38,480 nt of DNA, taken from an uncultured Oscillibacter sp. Lineage in GTDB: Bacteria > Bacillota > Clostridia > Oscillospirales > Oscillospiraceae. This document shows positions 26,075 to 31,173 of this stretch, in pieces (the first letter of the stretch is position 1; every line of letters starts with the position of its first letter). A program made the translations under genes and the position numbers. Location of the stretch: the NCBI GenBank assembly GCA_947382875.1, contig CANDBG010000021.1:1-38480 (forward strand). The letters are read 5' to 3'. Below the pieces are notes generated by a model. It did not search any database and was not told where the DNA came from. It worked only from the letters and a program-made list of their open reading frames with translations.

Positions 26075-29000
26075 TCAGTATTCCACCTCTCCAACATATA
26101 TCAGCTTCGCGTCGCCGGTGAGGGTTACGGATTCATCCGTATAGTGAACAATTAAATCCCCGCCGCGGACTCGAACCGTTATGTCCGTGTCCTTCGGACA
26201 TAAACCGTTCGCAATCGCTGCCGTGACCGCTGCGCATGCTCCGGTACCGCATGCCATCGTTTCGCCGCTGCCGCGCTCCCATACGCGCATCTTGATCGTG
26301 CTGGGGTTGACTACCCGGATAAATTCTGTGTTGATGCGCTCCGGGAAATAAGGCGCGTGCTCAAAACGCGGACCAATAAAATCTACATCCACTGCATCCA
26401 CACGGGGACAGAAAACCACACAATGCGGGTTGCCCATATCAACACAGGTGATGTTATAAGGCCGTCCTGCTATGCGGACGGGATAATTTACCACCGTCTT
26501 TTCTGGTATCGTAAACTTCAACGCTGCCGTATCCAACGTTGCCTTTCCCATGTCCACACAGGCGGACGTCACCTTTCCGCTTGTGGTGTACAGCGTTACC
26601 GTCCTGATGCCGCTGCCGGTTTCCACCGTCAGCGTTTCCCCCTTTACAAAACCATTGTCATACAAATACTTGCCCATGCAGCGCAGCGCGTTGCCGGCCA
26701 TTTTGCCTTCGCTGCCGTCGCTGTTGAACATCCGCATTTTTGCGTCGGCTGCTTCCGAAGCCTCCATCAAAATAATGCCATCTGCACCGATGCCGTAATG
26801 ACGGTCGCAGAGCGTGATGCAGAGCGATTCCGGACAGGTGATTTCTCCATGGAAATTTTCCAGGAATATATAATCATTCCCACAAGTCTGCATTTTGGCA
26901 AATGTCAGGCGCTGGCGGCCGCTCCGGAGATGACAGATATCCACGAGCTCCGTGTTCTTCTGCGTGTAACGCGAAGCTAAAATATCTGTGAGGGCGTTGG
27001 CGGTGTCCAGAGAAGTGAGGCAGGGAATGCCCAGCTGGACGCACCGATGATTCAAATGAATAAAATCGCGGATATAATCGGGCTCTGTGGAGCCGGTGAG
27101 AATTACATAATCAATTCTGCCATTTTCCAACAGATCAAAAACCTGGTTGTCCTTGCCCAGCTTGCCGACGATTTCCACGTCCGCGCCCAGCTGGGAAATC
27201 TCCCGTGCTGTGCCATCGGTGGCGTAGAGCTTGTAGCCCATGTCGTCCAGCTTCCGGGCAATGTTTACAACCTCCGGCTGATCCCGGTGGTTGACGGAGA
27301 TCAATACGCCGCCGCGCTGCTCCTTTTCGACCCGGTAGCCCGCCGAAACCAACCCCTTGAACAAGGCTTCCTGCATATCTTTGCCAAGACCCAGAACCTC
27401 GCCTGTGGATTTCATTTCCGGGGACAGCGCCGCGTTTGCGTCGGTGATTTTCTCAAAGGAGAAAACCGGAACCTTAACCGCCACATAAGGCGGCTGCTTA
27501 TACAAGCCCACGCCGTAGCCAAGAGACTTGAGAGGGCGTCCGACCATGACCTTTGTCGCCAGCTCCACCATCGGCACACCGGTGACTTTGGAAATATATG
27601 GAACCGTACGGCTGGCCCGGGGGTTGACCTCTATGACGTACAGCCCGCCTTGGTATATCAAATACTGTATATTAATCAGGCCCTTGGTGCCCAGGGACAA
27701 CGCCAGCTTTTCCGAACAATCAATGATGGTTTTCAACATCCGGTCTCCGATGGAAAAGGGCGGGTATACCGCGATGGAGTCGCCGGAGTGAACGCCGGTG
27801 CGCTCAATGTGCTGCATGACGCCGGGAATCAGGACGTCCACGCCGTCGGAAATGACGTCGACCTCTAATTCCTTGCCCATCAGATACTGATCGACTAAAA
27901 CCGGATTCTCTACCTTGCCGGAAAGAATGATTTCCATGTAGGTACGAACGTCCTCGTCGTTGTGGGCAATGACCATATTCTGACCGCCGATGACGTAACT
28001 GGGACGCAGCAGAACGGGATACCCCAATTCGTTGGCCGCGTCCAGGGCCTCCTGCATTCCAAGAACGCCCCGGCCTTGCGGACGCTTGATGTGGAAGCGT
28101 TCCAGGAGTTCGTCAAACCGTTCCCGGTCCTCCGCCATGTCGATGGATTCCGCACTGGTGCCCATGATCGAAATGCCTTGGCTGTCCAGAAATTTCGTCA
28201 GCTTGATGGCCGTCTGACCGCCGAAAGCCACGACCACACCGACGGGTTTTTCCACATCAATGATCTGCATGACGTCCTCGGGACAGAGCGGTTCAAAATA
28301 CAGACGGTCCGCGGTGTCGTAGTCCGTGGAGACAGTTTCGGGGTTGTTGTTGACGATTACCACGTCATACCCCATCTCTTTCAGCGTCCAGACGCAGTGA
28401 ACAGAAGAATAATCGAACTCAATGCCTTGTCCAATCCGAATCGGACCGGAACCAAGTACCATAATCACAGGGCGTCCGGAACGCGGGAACGCGCGGGATT
28501 CACAGTAATGGTCAAAGCTGGAGTAGAAGTACGGCGTTTCCGCGTCGAATTCCGCGCCGCAGGTATCCACCATCTTGTATACGGCCTTTTGGGGTTCACA
28601 GGGAAGCTCCTTATTGTAAGAGAGACGGAGCAGGGCCTCATCCGTGTAGCCCAGCTGCTTGCCACGCTGGTAATCCTCGGGATGCAGCTTGTCCATCCGC
28701 TCCAAATCCCACTCAAAGCCTGCCAGATTTTCGATCTTATGCAGGAACCACCGGTCAATTTTGGTAATCTGATAAATTTCCTCTACGTCAACGCCGGCTT
28801 TCAGGGCCTCGAAAATGGTGAACAGACGGTGATCGTCCACCTGCTTCAAACGCTCCATGAGCGGAATGCCGGACGTGTCTTTCCGGTTCAGCGTATCCAT
28901 GCCGATCTCCGCGCCCCGGACCGCCTTCATCAGCGCCATCTCAAAGCTGGGGGCAATCGACATGACTTCGCCGGTGGCCTTCATTTGCGTGCCCAGCGTG

Positions 29001-30109
29001 CGGGAGGCGTCGGCAAACTTATCGAAAGGCCACTTCGGCATTTTGACGACAATGTAATCCACCGTAGGCTCAAAGCAGGCGCAGGTTTTGCCGGTAATGT
29101 CATTTTTGATCTCGTCCAGCGTGTAGCCCAGGGCTATTTTGGTGGTAATTTTGGCAATCGGGTAGCCGGTGGCTTTGGACGCCAGCGCCGAAGACCGTGA
29201 AACCCGCGGGTTTACCTCGATTACGGCATACTCAAAGCTGTCGGGGTTCAGGGCGAACTGTACGTTGCAGCCGCCAACGATGCCCAGATTGGTGATAATG
29301 TCCAGAGAAGCGGAACGGAGCATTTGAAATTCCTTGTCCGCCAGGGTCTGGGTGGGAGCCACGACGATGGAATCGCCGGTGTGGATGCCAACCGGGTCCA
29401 TGTTTTCCATGGAGCAAATCGCAATCACATTGCCGATGCTGTCCCGCATGGTCTCGAATTCGATTTCCTTCCAGCCGAATATGGCCTTTTCAACCAGTAC
29501 CTGGGTGATGGGCGAAGCGTCCAGGCCTGTCTGGGCAATGACACGAAGCTCAGCTTCGTTCTGCGCCGCTCCGCCGCCTGCGCCGCCCAGCGTAAAGGCG
29601 GGCCGTACGATGACCGGATAGCCAATCCGGGCGGCAGCTTCCAACGCGCCGTCCACCGTTTCCGCAATGTCGGAGGCAATGACCGGCTGTCCAATTTCCG
29701 CCATGGCTTCCTTGAACAGTTCACGGTCTTCGGCGCGGGAAATGGCCTTGGCATCGGTACCCAGCAGACGGACGTTTTCTTCGGCCAGAAAACCTTCCTT
29801 GTCCAGCTGCATAGCCAACGTCAGGCCAGTCTGACCGCCCAGACCCGCGAGAATGGAGTCCGGCTTTTCCTTTCGGATAATGCGTTTGATGGTCTCTATG
29901 GCCAGCGGTTCCAGGTAAATTTCGTCCGCCATGGCCTGATCGGTCATGATGGTGGCGGGGTTGGAGTTGCAGAGAACAACGTTGACGCCCGCCTCTTTCA
30001 GCACACGGCACGCCTGTGCGCCTGCGTAGTCGAATTCCGCGGCCTGACCAATGACAATCGGGCCGGAGCCTATTACCAGCACTTTTTTGATTTTACGATC
30101 CAACGGCAT
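26075..30109 (-). CDS. carB: carbamoyl-phosphate synthase large chain fused to a diaminopimelate epimerase domain
   Basis: The 1344-residue reading frame holds two proteins. Residues 1-1067 are a complete CarB: two ATP-grasp halves (both with the GSGPI-IGQ start at about 14 and 555) and a C-terminal allosteric MGS domain ending near TELVDICHLR. Residues 1068-1344 are a complete DapF (LTFAKMQTCGNDYIF to GDAKLIYVGEVEY), normally a separate protein of about 275 residues that interconverts LL- and meso-diaminopimelate. No stop codon or good internal start separates them; the only start-like codon at the junction is CTG at 26908. The DapF part has the second catalytic Cys (residue 1287, GETMACGTGA), but Ala1138 replaces the first one (KMAGNALRC in place of CGNGxRC). 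It overlaps carA by one base. Confidence 0.95.
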   Translation of the reverse strand: MPLDRKIKKVLVIGSGPIVIGQAAEFDYAGAQACRVLKEAGVNVVLCNSNPATIMTDQAMADEIYLEPLAIETIKRIIRKEKPDSILAGLGGQTGLTLAMQLDKEGFLAEENVRLLGTDAKAISRAEDRELFKEAMAEIGQPVIASDIAETVDGALEAAARIGYPVIVRPAFTLGGAGGGAAQNEAELRVIAQTGLDASPITQVLVEKAIFGWKEIEFETMRDSIGNVIAICSMENMDPVGIHTGDSIVVAPTQTLADKEFQMLRSASLDIITNLGIVGGCNVQFALNPDSFEYAVIEVNPRVSRSSALASKATGYPIAKITTKIALGYTLDEIKNDITGKTCACFEPTVDYIVVKMPKWPFDKFADASRTLGTQMKATGEVMSIAPSFEMALMKAVRGAEIGMDTLNRKDTSGIPLMERLKQVDDHRLFTIFEALKAGVDVEEIYQITKIDRWFLHKIENLAGFEWDLERMDKLHPEDYQRGKQLGYTDEALLRLSYNKELPCEPQKAVYKMVDTCGAEFDAETPYFYSSFDHYCESRAFPRSGRPVIMVLGSGPIRIGQGIEFDYSSVHCVWTLKEMGYDVVIVNNNPETVSTDYDTADRLYFEPLCPEDVMQIIDVEKPVGVVVAFGGQTAIKLTKFLDSQGISIMGTSAESIDMAEDRERFDELLERFHIKRPQGRGVLGMQEALDAANELGYPVLLRPSYVIGGQNMVIAHNDEDVRTYMEIILSGKVENPVLVDQYLMGKELEVDVISDGVDVLIPGVMQHIERTGVHSGDSIAVYPPFSIGDRMLKTIIDCSEKLALSLGTKGLINIQYLIYQGGLYVIEVNPRASRTVPYISKVTGVPMVELATKVMVGRPLKSLGYGVGLYKQPPYVAVKVPVFSFEKITDANAALSPEMKSTGEVLGLGKDMQEALFKGLVSAGYRVEKEQRGGVLISVNHRDQPEVVNIARKLDDMGYKLYATDGTAREISQLGADVEIVGKLGKDNQVFDLLENGRIDYVILTGSTEPDYIRDFIHLNHRCVQLGIPCLTSLDTANALTDILASRYTQKNTELVDICHLRSGRQRLTFAKMQTCGNDYIFLENFHGEITCPESLCITLCDRHYGIGADGIILMEASEAADAKMRMFNSDGSEGKMAGNALRCMGKYLYDNGFVKGETLTVETGSGIRTVTLYTTSGKVTSACVDMGKATLDTAALKFTIPEKTVVNYPVRIAGRPYNITCVDMGNPHCVVFCPRVDAVDVDFIGPRFEHAPYFPERINTEFIRVVNPSTIKMRVWERGSGETMACGTGACAAVTAAIANGLCPKDTDITVRVRGGDLIVHYTDESVTLTGDAKLIYVGEVEY

Positions 30110-31173
30110 TACAGGTGGCCTCCTTCCATCAAAGCGGTGAAGCGGTCAAAGAGGAACGCGGTGTCGAGGGGGCCGCCGCGGGCTTCCGGGTGAAACTGGA
30201 CGGTAAACGCTTGCAAATCAGGATAATCAATGCCTTCGCAGGTGCCGTCGTTGGCGTTTGCGAAGGAGACTTTTCCGGCTTTGAGATGCTCTGCATCCAC
30301 CGCATAGCCATGGTTCTGACTGGTGATGTACGTGCGGAGCCCGTTCAGGTCCCGTACCGGCTGATTGACGCCCCGGTGTCCGTACTTGAGCTTGAAGGTG
30401 GACCCGCCAACCGCCAAGGCCATGAGCTGGTGTCCAAGACAGATGCCAAACATGGGAACCTTGCCCAGCAGCCTGCGAATCTGTTCAATCTGATAGACGT
30501 TTTCCGCCGGGTCGCCGGGTCCGTTGGAAAGCATGACGCCATCCGGCGAGGCCGCCAGGATTTCCTCTGCGGAGGTTCCGGCGGGGAGAACCGTCACTTC
30601 ACAGCCCCGTTTTTGCAGCTGCCGGACGATGTAACGCTTTGCGCCGTAATCCAGCAGCGCGACGCGGAAACGCGTTCCGCCCTCCGCCGGATGGAGAGAC
30701 GGTTCCTTACAGGTGACGGTCTGCATCATGTTGGCGGAGGTGTGGGCAGCGGCGGCGGCCAGCCCGGCGTTTACGTCGGTGCAGATGGCGGCGTTCATCA
30801 CGCCTTGTTCCCGGATGATGCGGGTCAGCTCCCGGGTATCGATGCCGCAAAGTCCCGGAACGTTCTGTTCCTTCAAAAATTCTTCCAGGGTGCAGTCCGT
30901 ACGGAAATTGGAAGGGGATTTGCAGAATTCCCGCACGATGTAGCCCTCCACACGGCACGCTCCTTCGAAATCCGCCCGCATGACGCCATAGTTCCCAATC
31001 AAAGGGTAAGTTTGCAGAACGATTTGTCCGGCATAGCTGGGGTCGGTCAGAGTTTCGACGTAGCCGCCCATACCGGTGGTAAATACCAGTTCGCCCACGG
31101 CTTCGGTCTCTGCGCCGAAGCGAAGCCCCTCGAAGACCTGTCCATCCTGAAGCACTAAATAACCTTTTTCCAT
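30109..31173 (-). CDS. carA: carbamoyl-phosphate synthase small chain
   Basis: The 354-residue glutaminase subunit supplies ammonia to CarB. The N-terminal domain starts LVLQDGQVFEGLRFG, and the C-terminal class I amidotransferase domain has LLDYGAKRYIVRQL, the nucleophile in FGICLGHQLMALA and VQFHPEARGGP. Length is typical. GGGAGGG precedes the ATG at 31173. The stop overlaps the carB start (TAATG), giving translational coupling. It heads the carA-carB-dapF transcript from the promoter at 31226-31254. I see no pyrimidine or arginine attenuator in the short leader of about 45 bases. Confidence 0.97.
   Translation of the reverse strand: MEKGYLVLQDGQVFEGLRFGAETEAVGELVFTTGMGGYVETLTDPSYAGQIVLQTYPLIGNYGVMRADFEGACRVEGYIVREFCKSPSNFRTDCTLEEFLKEQNVPGLCGIDTRELTRIIREQGVMNAAICTDVNAGLAAAAAHTSANMMQTVTCKEPSLHPAEGGTRFRVALLDYGAKRYIVRQLQKRGCEVTVLPAGTSAEEILAASPDGVMLSNGPGDPAENVYQIEQIRRLLGKVPMFGICLGHQLMALAVGGSTFKLKYGHRGVNQPVRDLNGLRTYITSQNHGYAVDAEHLKAGKVSFANANDGTCEGIDYPDLQAFTVQFHPEARGGPLDTAFLFDRFTALMEGGHL

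Follow-up and report, generated by a model that had tools for sequence, protein, structure and literature searches.

What does a diaminopimelate epimerase do when it is joined to carbamoyl-phosphate synthase? The question is raised by a stretch of 38,480 nt from an uncultured Oscillibacter sp. (assembly GCA_947382875.1, contig CANDBG010000021.1, forward strand, 1 to 38,480; this whole stretch is called the window below), in which the large chain of carbamoyl-phosphate synthase (CPSase), CarB, continues in a single frame into a domain of the diaminopimelate (DAP) epimerase DapF. The genome that holds the window is 87.5% complete and in 113 contigs. Read from the sequences of this and related genomes are the fusion itself, a single clade of fused copies, the loss of the catalytic Cys73 from the fused domain, a conserved substrate pocket, other candidate routes to meso-DAP and a remodelled site in the MGS domain of CarB. 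With a confidence slightly better than even, we infer that the disarmed DapF domain acts as a DAP-binding regulatory domain, that is, a sensor, of CPSase.

The fused frame and its catalytic cysteines

The features of the locus are as follows.

26075..30109, reverse strand: carB::dapF, a single frame of 1344 aa with an ATG start and zero internal stops (open reading frame listing and family matches)
26984..30109, reverse strand: CarB part, residues 4-1042, with two ATP-grasp halves, the oligomerisation domain and the MGS domain (TIGR01369, Pfam)
27014-27274, reverse strand: MGS domain, residues 946-1032 (Pfam)
26924..26956, reverse strand: junction, the CarB C-terminal tail motif NTELVDICHLR (by comparison with the unfused CarB ends ..VDITKI and ..THLVDINH)
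26906..26908, reverse strand: CTG codon for Leu1068, aligned with DapF Met1; as a start codon it is not conserved
26078..26908, reverse strand: DapF-fold domain, residues 1068-1344
26696..26698, reverse strand: Ala1138 codon GCC, equivalent of the catalytic Cys73 (E. coli/H. influenzae numbering), the lost base
26249..26251, reverse strand: Cys1287 codon TGC, equivalent of the catalytic Cys217, kept
30109..31173, reverse strand: carA, the CPSase small chain, directly upstream, its 3' end sharing one base with the carB start

Both family models match the frame. TIGR01369 (CPSase large chain) scores 1394 bits over residues 4-1042 against a cut-off of 1027, so that the CarB part is complete, and TIGR00652 (DapF) scores 268 bits over residues 1069-1342 against a cut-off of 114.65, so that the DapF part is complete in length. 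An earlier note on this DNA had described CarB and DapF as joined in one open frame, both full length; the joining and the two lengths stand, but the term "full diaminopimelate epimerase" does not, the Cys73 equivalent being Ala1138. The predicted product is a glutamine-dependent CPSase (CarA plus CarB) with a DapF domain covalently joined to its large chain, behind the allosteric MGS domain, and carA lies no more than 500 nt upstream in 59 of the 65 fusions with room for it. The fused chain very likely makes carbamoyl phosphate, because in 22 of 29 fused genomes, the window's own among them, no CPSase large chain other than that of carB-dapF was found (large chains were counted in 30 chosen genomes).

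The cysteine assignment comes from an alignment with E. coli DapF (duplicate loci L001, L002, L004, L005 and L034 left out), where Ala1138 falls on Cys73 and Cys1287 on Cys217, and comparison with PDB 2otn independently gave the same result. Across 137 fused domains position 73 is Ala in 70, Cys in 34, Gly in 15, Ser in 10, Phe in 6, Thr in 1 and Pro in 1, which leaves 103 without Cys73, while position 217 is Cys in 131 and Ser in 6; Cys217 is retained in 101 of the 103 Cys73-less fusions. Outside the order, 27 fused domains were read, with Cys73 in 20, Ala in 5 and Ser in 2. By contrast, separate DapFs in the tree set have Cys73 in 48/48, two apparent exceptions being fusions cut by contig ends, and the second, separate DapFs of fused genomes have both cysteines in 48/48 read; these two sets overlap, and 40 of the second DapFs read come from the 69 genomes that combine a Cys73-less fusion with a further DapF match. 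In DapF of C. glutamicum, C83A (the Cys73 equivalent) and C221A are reported to almost abolish activity (PMC5296763), Chlamydia C72A and C207A alleles are described as failing to complement a D-glutamate auxotroph (PMC5885031), and a histidine racemase of the DapF fold is reported to be strongly impaired by C67S or C209S (PMC11602996). Since the window has Ala where the matching C. glutamicum mutant is nearly inactive, its fused domain probably does not work as an epimerase, as far as mutants of other DapFs can be carried over. The Ser217 fusions belong to six genomes (G152, G199, G239, G041, G064 and G259), four of which keep Cys73, another way to lose one catalytic cysteine.

The pocket around the lost base is retained. 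Among 166 Cys73-less fusions the twelve substrate-site residues have a mean conservation of 0.967 versus 0.675 for the other columns, a value reached by 0 of 20,000 random sets, and the substrate-site residues other than Cys73 are individually conserved at 79-100%. The window has all the DAP-binding residues (N11, N64, N75, N157, N190, E208, R209 and S/T219), and it has equivalents of all eight contact residues mutated in C. glutamicum, where DapF is reported to need Asn15, 74, 85, 159, 194, Glu212, Arg213 and Thr223 (PMC5296763). Compared with known DapFs (TIGR00652; PDB 2otn, 3ejx, 5h2g), the whole fold thus aligns by sequence with the DAP-binding residues and Cys217 in place, but Cys73 is Ala and the domain is covalently joined to CarB. 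Within the genus the DapF domain is under purifying selection, with a median dN/dS of 0.21 versus 0.13 for the CarB part and a dN roughly double that of CarB (computed for 27 of 29 loci on the 291 of 351 pairs with dS <1.5, so near saturation). A decaying domain is unsupported by these ratios.

Range of the fusion and other routes to meso-DAP

The earlier note had mentioned, as uncertain, long CarB entries in related clostridia, and such frames do occur in many related genomes. In a search of 60 relatives the fused domain was present in 30 of 36 same-genus genomes, in 28 of them in frames of at least 1320 aa, the remaining two (772 and 788 aa) reaching contig ends; none of the 30 matches has an internal stop, and fused frames of 1325-1432 aa occur in 12 further families of the same order. 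With a profile of the linker and the domain, built from 19 fused sequences, junction-spanning matches were obtained in at least 136 of the 394 genomes of the order, the window's own included, spread over 20 families, with a few frames cut by contig ends; 136 is a lower bound, as the divergent fused frame of G070, absent from the order list, shows in the class search. That search (393 genomes) found at least 44 fused frames in genomes that do not belong to the order. In another search, the named carriers among the best 80 loci listed include Ruminococcus sp. FC2018, whose fusion has Cys73, Neglectibacter sp. X58, a Saccharofermentans metagenome-assembled genome (MAG), Treponema (the isolate sp. 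C6A8 and two MAGs) and a Spirochaetaceae MAG. Since unbroken fused frames recur across so many genomes, an assembly artefact or frameshift is ruled out.

In a FastTree tree of 272 rows (identical domains merged; L136 and L236, whose fusions are truncated at contig ends, left out, as were L003 and L054) all 225 fused copies fall into one clade, together with one separate copy, and thus a single fusion, later spread both vertically and laterally, appears to fit best. By these comparisons the fusion is old. The Treponema and Spirochaetaceae fusions were presumably acquired by lateral transfer; those from MAGs could be binning errors, while L277 comes from an isolate. At position 73 these spirochaete fusions have Ala in L277, L274 and L278 and Gly in L265. 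The separate copy inside the fused clade (L292, frame from 4956 on the forward strand, 295 aa) is possibly a secondary split of the fusion.

Has the cell another way to make meso-DAP? The earlier note had proposed looking for a second dapF in the same genome, and one is present: a separate DapF of 277 aa at L003:1495-2328 with both catalytic cysteines and 208 bits to TIGR00652. DAP dehydrogenase (Ddh) gave no match in this genome. Further TIGR00652 matches occur in at least 69 of 102 Cys73-less genomes versus at least 9 of 34 Cys73-bearing ones (Fisher p 4e-5; 136 of 137 rows, G011 lacking a count and the standalone row of L163 left out). A rule that Cys73 is kept if and only if DapF is single was rejected as inexact, with 33 Cys73-less single-DapF and 9 Cys73-bearing multi-DapF genomes. 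In those 33, which have no further TIGR00652 hit among the matches listed, the fusion is the only DAP_epimerase (PF01678) gene, and adding Ddh to the rule covers 27 of them, or 25 if the weak, two-piece Ddh matches of G280 and G064 are set aside. The Ddh search covered 68 chosen genomes, including 20 of the 25 Cys73-bearing single-DapF genomes, of which 11 gave no match, and 15 of the 69 Cys73-less multi-DapF genomes, of which 4 have Ddh. Taken together, another candidate meso-DAP route (further DapF or Ddh) was found in 96 of 102 Cys73-less genomes (94 without the two weak matches), and none was found in 6/102 Cys73-less versus 11/29 Cys73-bearing genomes assessed (Fisher p 5e-5; 8/102, p 2e-4, without the weak matches).

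Gene order points to the earlier state of the fusion. Among fusions with at least 600 nt of room, dapL (LL-DAP aminotransferase) lies directly downstream of 9 of 57 Cys73-bearing copies versus 0 of 152 Cys73-less ones, the family being confirmed by TIGR03542 for two of the nine, and this restriction to Cys73-bearing copies suggests that the fusion was first a working epimerase and may have arisen in a carA-carB-dapF-dapL order. In G249 (L163/L347, contig 11, 310908-312954) a Cys73-bearing fusion is followed, after about 220 nt, by a separate dapF with both cysteines, which resembles a tandem copy of the fused domain.

A putative DAP sensor and its rivals

In the MGS domain, six positions in the region of the E. 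coli UMP/IMP site (954, 993, 1015, 1017, 1020 and 1030), our own choice, which we take to represent the site, were scored in 136 fused rows. Five or six canonical residues are found in 34/34 Cys73-bearing fusions and four to six in 21/22 unfused CarBs, whereas 68 of 69 Ala73 fusions keep only 0-3. Compared with CarB of the carAB CPSases (E. coli 1a9x/1bxr), the window's chain is likewise complete with its MGS domain and has carA upstream, but it is about 277 residues longer and is changed at Q954, L1015, G1017, P1020 and N1030.

In the scenario that we favour, the ancestral CarB-DapF would have been bifunctional, its epimerase active with both cysteines, and that state would persist in relatives in which the only route found between LL- and meso-DAP is the fused domain and in which dapL may come next in the operon. 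The joining of two working enzymes that the earlier note found metabolically odd probably does not hold for this organism, in which one catalytic cysteine is Ala, but the fusion probably did join two working enzymes in the ancestor and still does in the Cys73-bearing relatives. In the lineage of the window, meso-DAP synthesis would have passed to a separate DapF with both cysteines (to DAP dehydrogenase in other genomes), and the fused domain would have lost Cys73 and been retained with its ligand pocket. A DapF without this cysteine could bind without turnover; DAP binding would close the two DapF lobes, the movement would pass to the adjoining MGS domain and set CPSase activity, and as a result pyrimidine (UDP-sugar) and arginine supply would be tied to cell-wall precursor supply. 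Ligand binding and the allosteric effect are put forward here as probable; that the ligand is DAP, and whether it would activate or inhibit, are guesses.

The regulatory role is favoured because DapF lobes close, because binding without turnover is conceivable and because there are precedents. C. glutamicum DapF is reported to make a large open/closed movement upon DAP binding (PMC5296763). E. coli DapF(C73A,C217A) is reported still to bind and stimulate RppH (PMC4227774), so that there too a DapF fold is the regulatory partner of another enzyme even without both cysteines, although the two are separate proteins and the part of that account available to us mentions no DAP sensing. HisZ, described as an inactive histidyl-tRNA synthetase paralogue regulating HisG (PMC10795190), is likewise an enzyme turned ligand-binding allosteric regulator of the first step of a pathway, but as a separate subunit of unrelated fold and pathway; the Cys73-less fusions show the same pairing of a lost catalytic residue with a conserved ligand pocket. 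In human CPS1 the C-terminal MGS-like domain is reported to bind a different, amino-acid type effector, N-acetylglutamate (PMC4655335), but in CPS1 no domain is added after MGS. As an enzyme turned regulatory domain, CarB-DapF would be of a known kind; a variant on CPSase, derived from an epimerase, would be new. No description of the fusion was found in the literature searched (subscription journals and protein databases were outside its scope), and automatic annotation may already list long CarB-DapF entries.

More tentatively, and with somewhat less than even confidence, we propose that, in a class of CPSases widely distributed among clostridia and present in some treponemes, a DAP sensor made from a disarmed epimerase has replaced or supplemented nucleotide control, so that the supply of peptidoglycan precursors would directly gate pyrimidine and arginine synthesis. 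If true, the supply of cell-wall amino acids would be coupled directly, at the molecular level, to the synthesis of nucleotides and arginine, and the Cys-bearing fusion, the disarmed fusion and the lost domain would form a natural series for the evolution of a sensor from an enzyme. Family models label these genes both CarB and DapF, and to treat the Cys73-less ones as lysine or peptidoglycan enzymes in metabolic models of these bacteria would probably be an error.

Several observations weigh against a DAP sensor. Asn11 is the weakest of the pocket residues (0.79 in Cys73-less fusions, with Asp in 25 of 138 alignment rows), and therefore the ligand may be something other than DAP. The Fisher tests take no account of phylogeny, and a phylogenetic test on pairs, comparing Cys73 loss with the presence of a second DapF, found 4 pairs on starred branches and has no power. 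Six Cys73-less genomes, 84-99% complete, show no other route (G206, G376, G418, G294, G063 and G308; eight once the weak Ddh matches are set aside), which may be assembly gaps or true counter-examples, and 6 of the 36 same-genus genomes, themselves 56-90% complete, have no fused match. Canonical MGS sites with five or six residues are kept in 6/6 Phe73, 13/15 Gly73, 5/10 Ser73 and 1/1 Thr73 fusions, and therefore MGS remodelling does not follow from the loss of the cysteine alone; it is mainly the property of one large lineage, the window's own, essentially one clade. Thr977, Lys993 and Ser948 are among the residues named for the MGS effector site (PMC6245113), and since the window keeps the equivalents of Ser948, Thr974, Thr977, Lys993 and Thr1042, nucleotide or ornithine control may persist. 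Finally, G107 (L294) has the only unfused CarB with a remodelled MGS domain, ending in the fusion-type tail THLVDINH and a stop, followed by an argF-like gene (named by eye). This is probably a secondary, natural loss of the DapF domain, so that the domain can be lost, though G107 has a second CarB.

The rival that survives best, though we consider it unlikely, is that the domain is a dead epimerase whose fold is kept only for the stability or assembly of CarB and senses no ligand. The number of Cys73 losses (14, under a losses-only count on one FastTree tree), the retention of CarB by G107 after loss of the domain and the doubled dN of the domain would all suit such a relic. However, a domain kept only as a structural relic should lose its pocket residues, and thus the pocket of the Cys73-less fusions, Cys217 included, which is far better conserved than the remainder of the domain, speaks against it, as does the absence of internal stops from the same-genus fused matches.

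It is rather improbable that the domain is a new catalyst in which Cys217 and the intact pocket perform one-base chemistry, such as an elimination or a reaction on another substrate, as a second activity. The near-universal Cys217 and the conserved pocket of the Cys73-less fusions would fit, and other substrates are reported in the DapF family, as in an O-ureidoserine racemase (7vdy) and the histidine racemase (PMC11602996). On the other hand, the replacement at position 73 varies (A, G, S, F, T or P), unlike a new catalytic residue, and the DapF-fold racemases in the papers compared are described as needing both cysteines.

An equally slim chance is given to a DAP epimerase that still works, which would make the chain a bifunctional CPSase and epimerase in this organism. 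The TIGR00652 score well over its cut-off, the active look of the Cys73-bearing relatives and the six to eight Cys73-less genomes without another route found are in its favour, but Cys73 is Ala, the same change is reported to nearly abolish the C. glutamicum activity (PMC5296763), Chlamydia C72A is reported to fail in complementation (PMC5885031), and the window's genome has its second DapF with both cysteines.

The junction between CarB and DapF

The linker is near-constant in length (SRYxxxNTELVDINxMRxxRxxLxFxKM), and up to VDI it is CarB's own, the CarBs of unfused relatives ending in VDITKI, in VDINTIR or, in G107, in THLVDINH and a stop. In the column of DapF Met1 the 137 fusions have Leu in 83 and Ile in 40, and ATG, GTG or TTG in 8. 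The earlier note had allowed only a CTG at 26908 as a possible start for DapF; this codon is indeed at the Met1 position, and no start with a ribosome binding site was seen, but the CTG is not the only candidate, as in-frame GTG 26944 (Val1056, within the ELVDI tail of CarB) and ATG 26893 (Met1073, within the DapF fold) also exist. Neither has a well-spaced Shine-Dalgarno sequence, as read by eye, and neither the start codons nor the Shine-Dalgarno sequences inspected in the window pointed to DapF being initiated on its own. With no conserved start in the Met1 column, none of the tested Shine-Dalgarno 5-mers and CTC in the window where many relatives have ATG, we conclude that a single chain is predicted to be made; an internal start was judged unlikely on these codon and 5-mer tests. 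That this gene yields a separate DapF, through an internal start or through cleavage of the chain, is scarcely credible: an ATG (the Met of NTELVDINxMR) stands 7 codons before DapF Met1 in 100 of the 137 fusions, but the window has CTC (Leu) there, the tested 5-mers are absent at -20 to -5 from 137/137, and much of the stretch codes for a CarB tail common to unfused CarB.

Stop-to-stop fused frames of about 1500 aa, versus the usual 1345, were seen at L099, L105, L106 and L110 (family f3) and in G065 and G083 (family f7).

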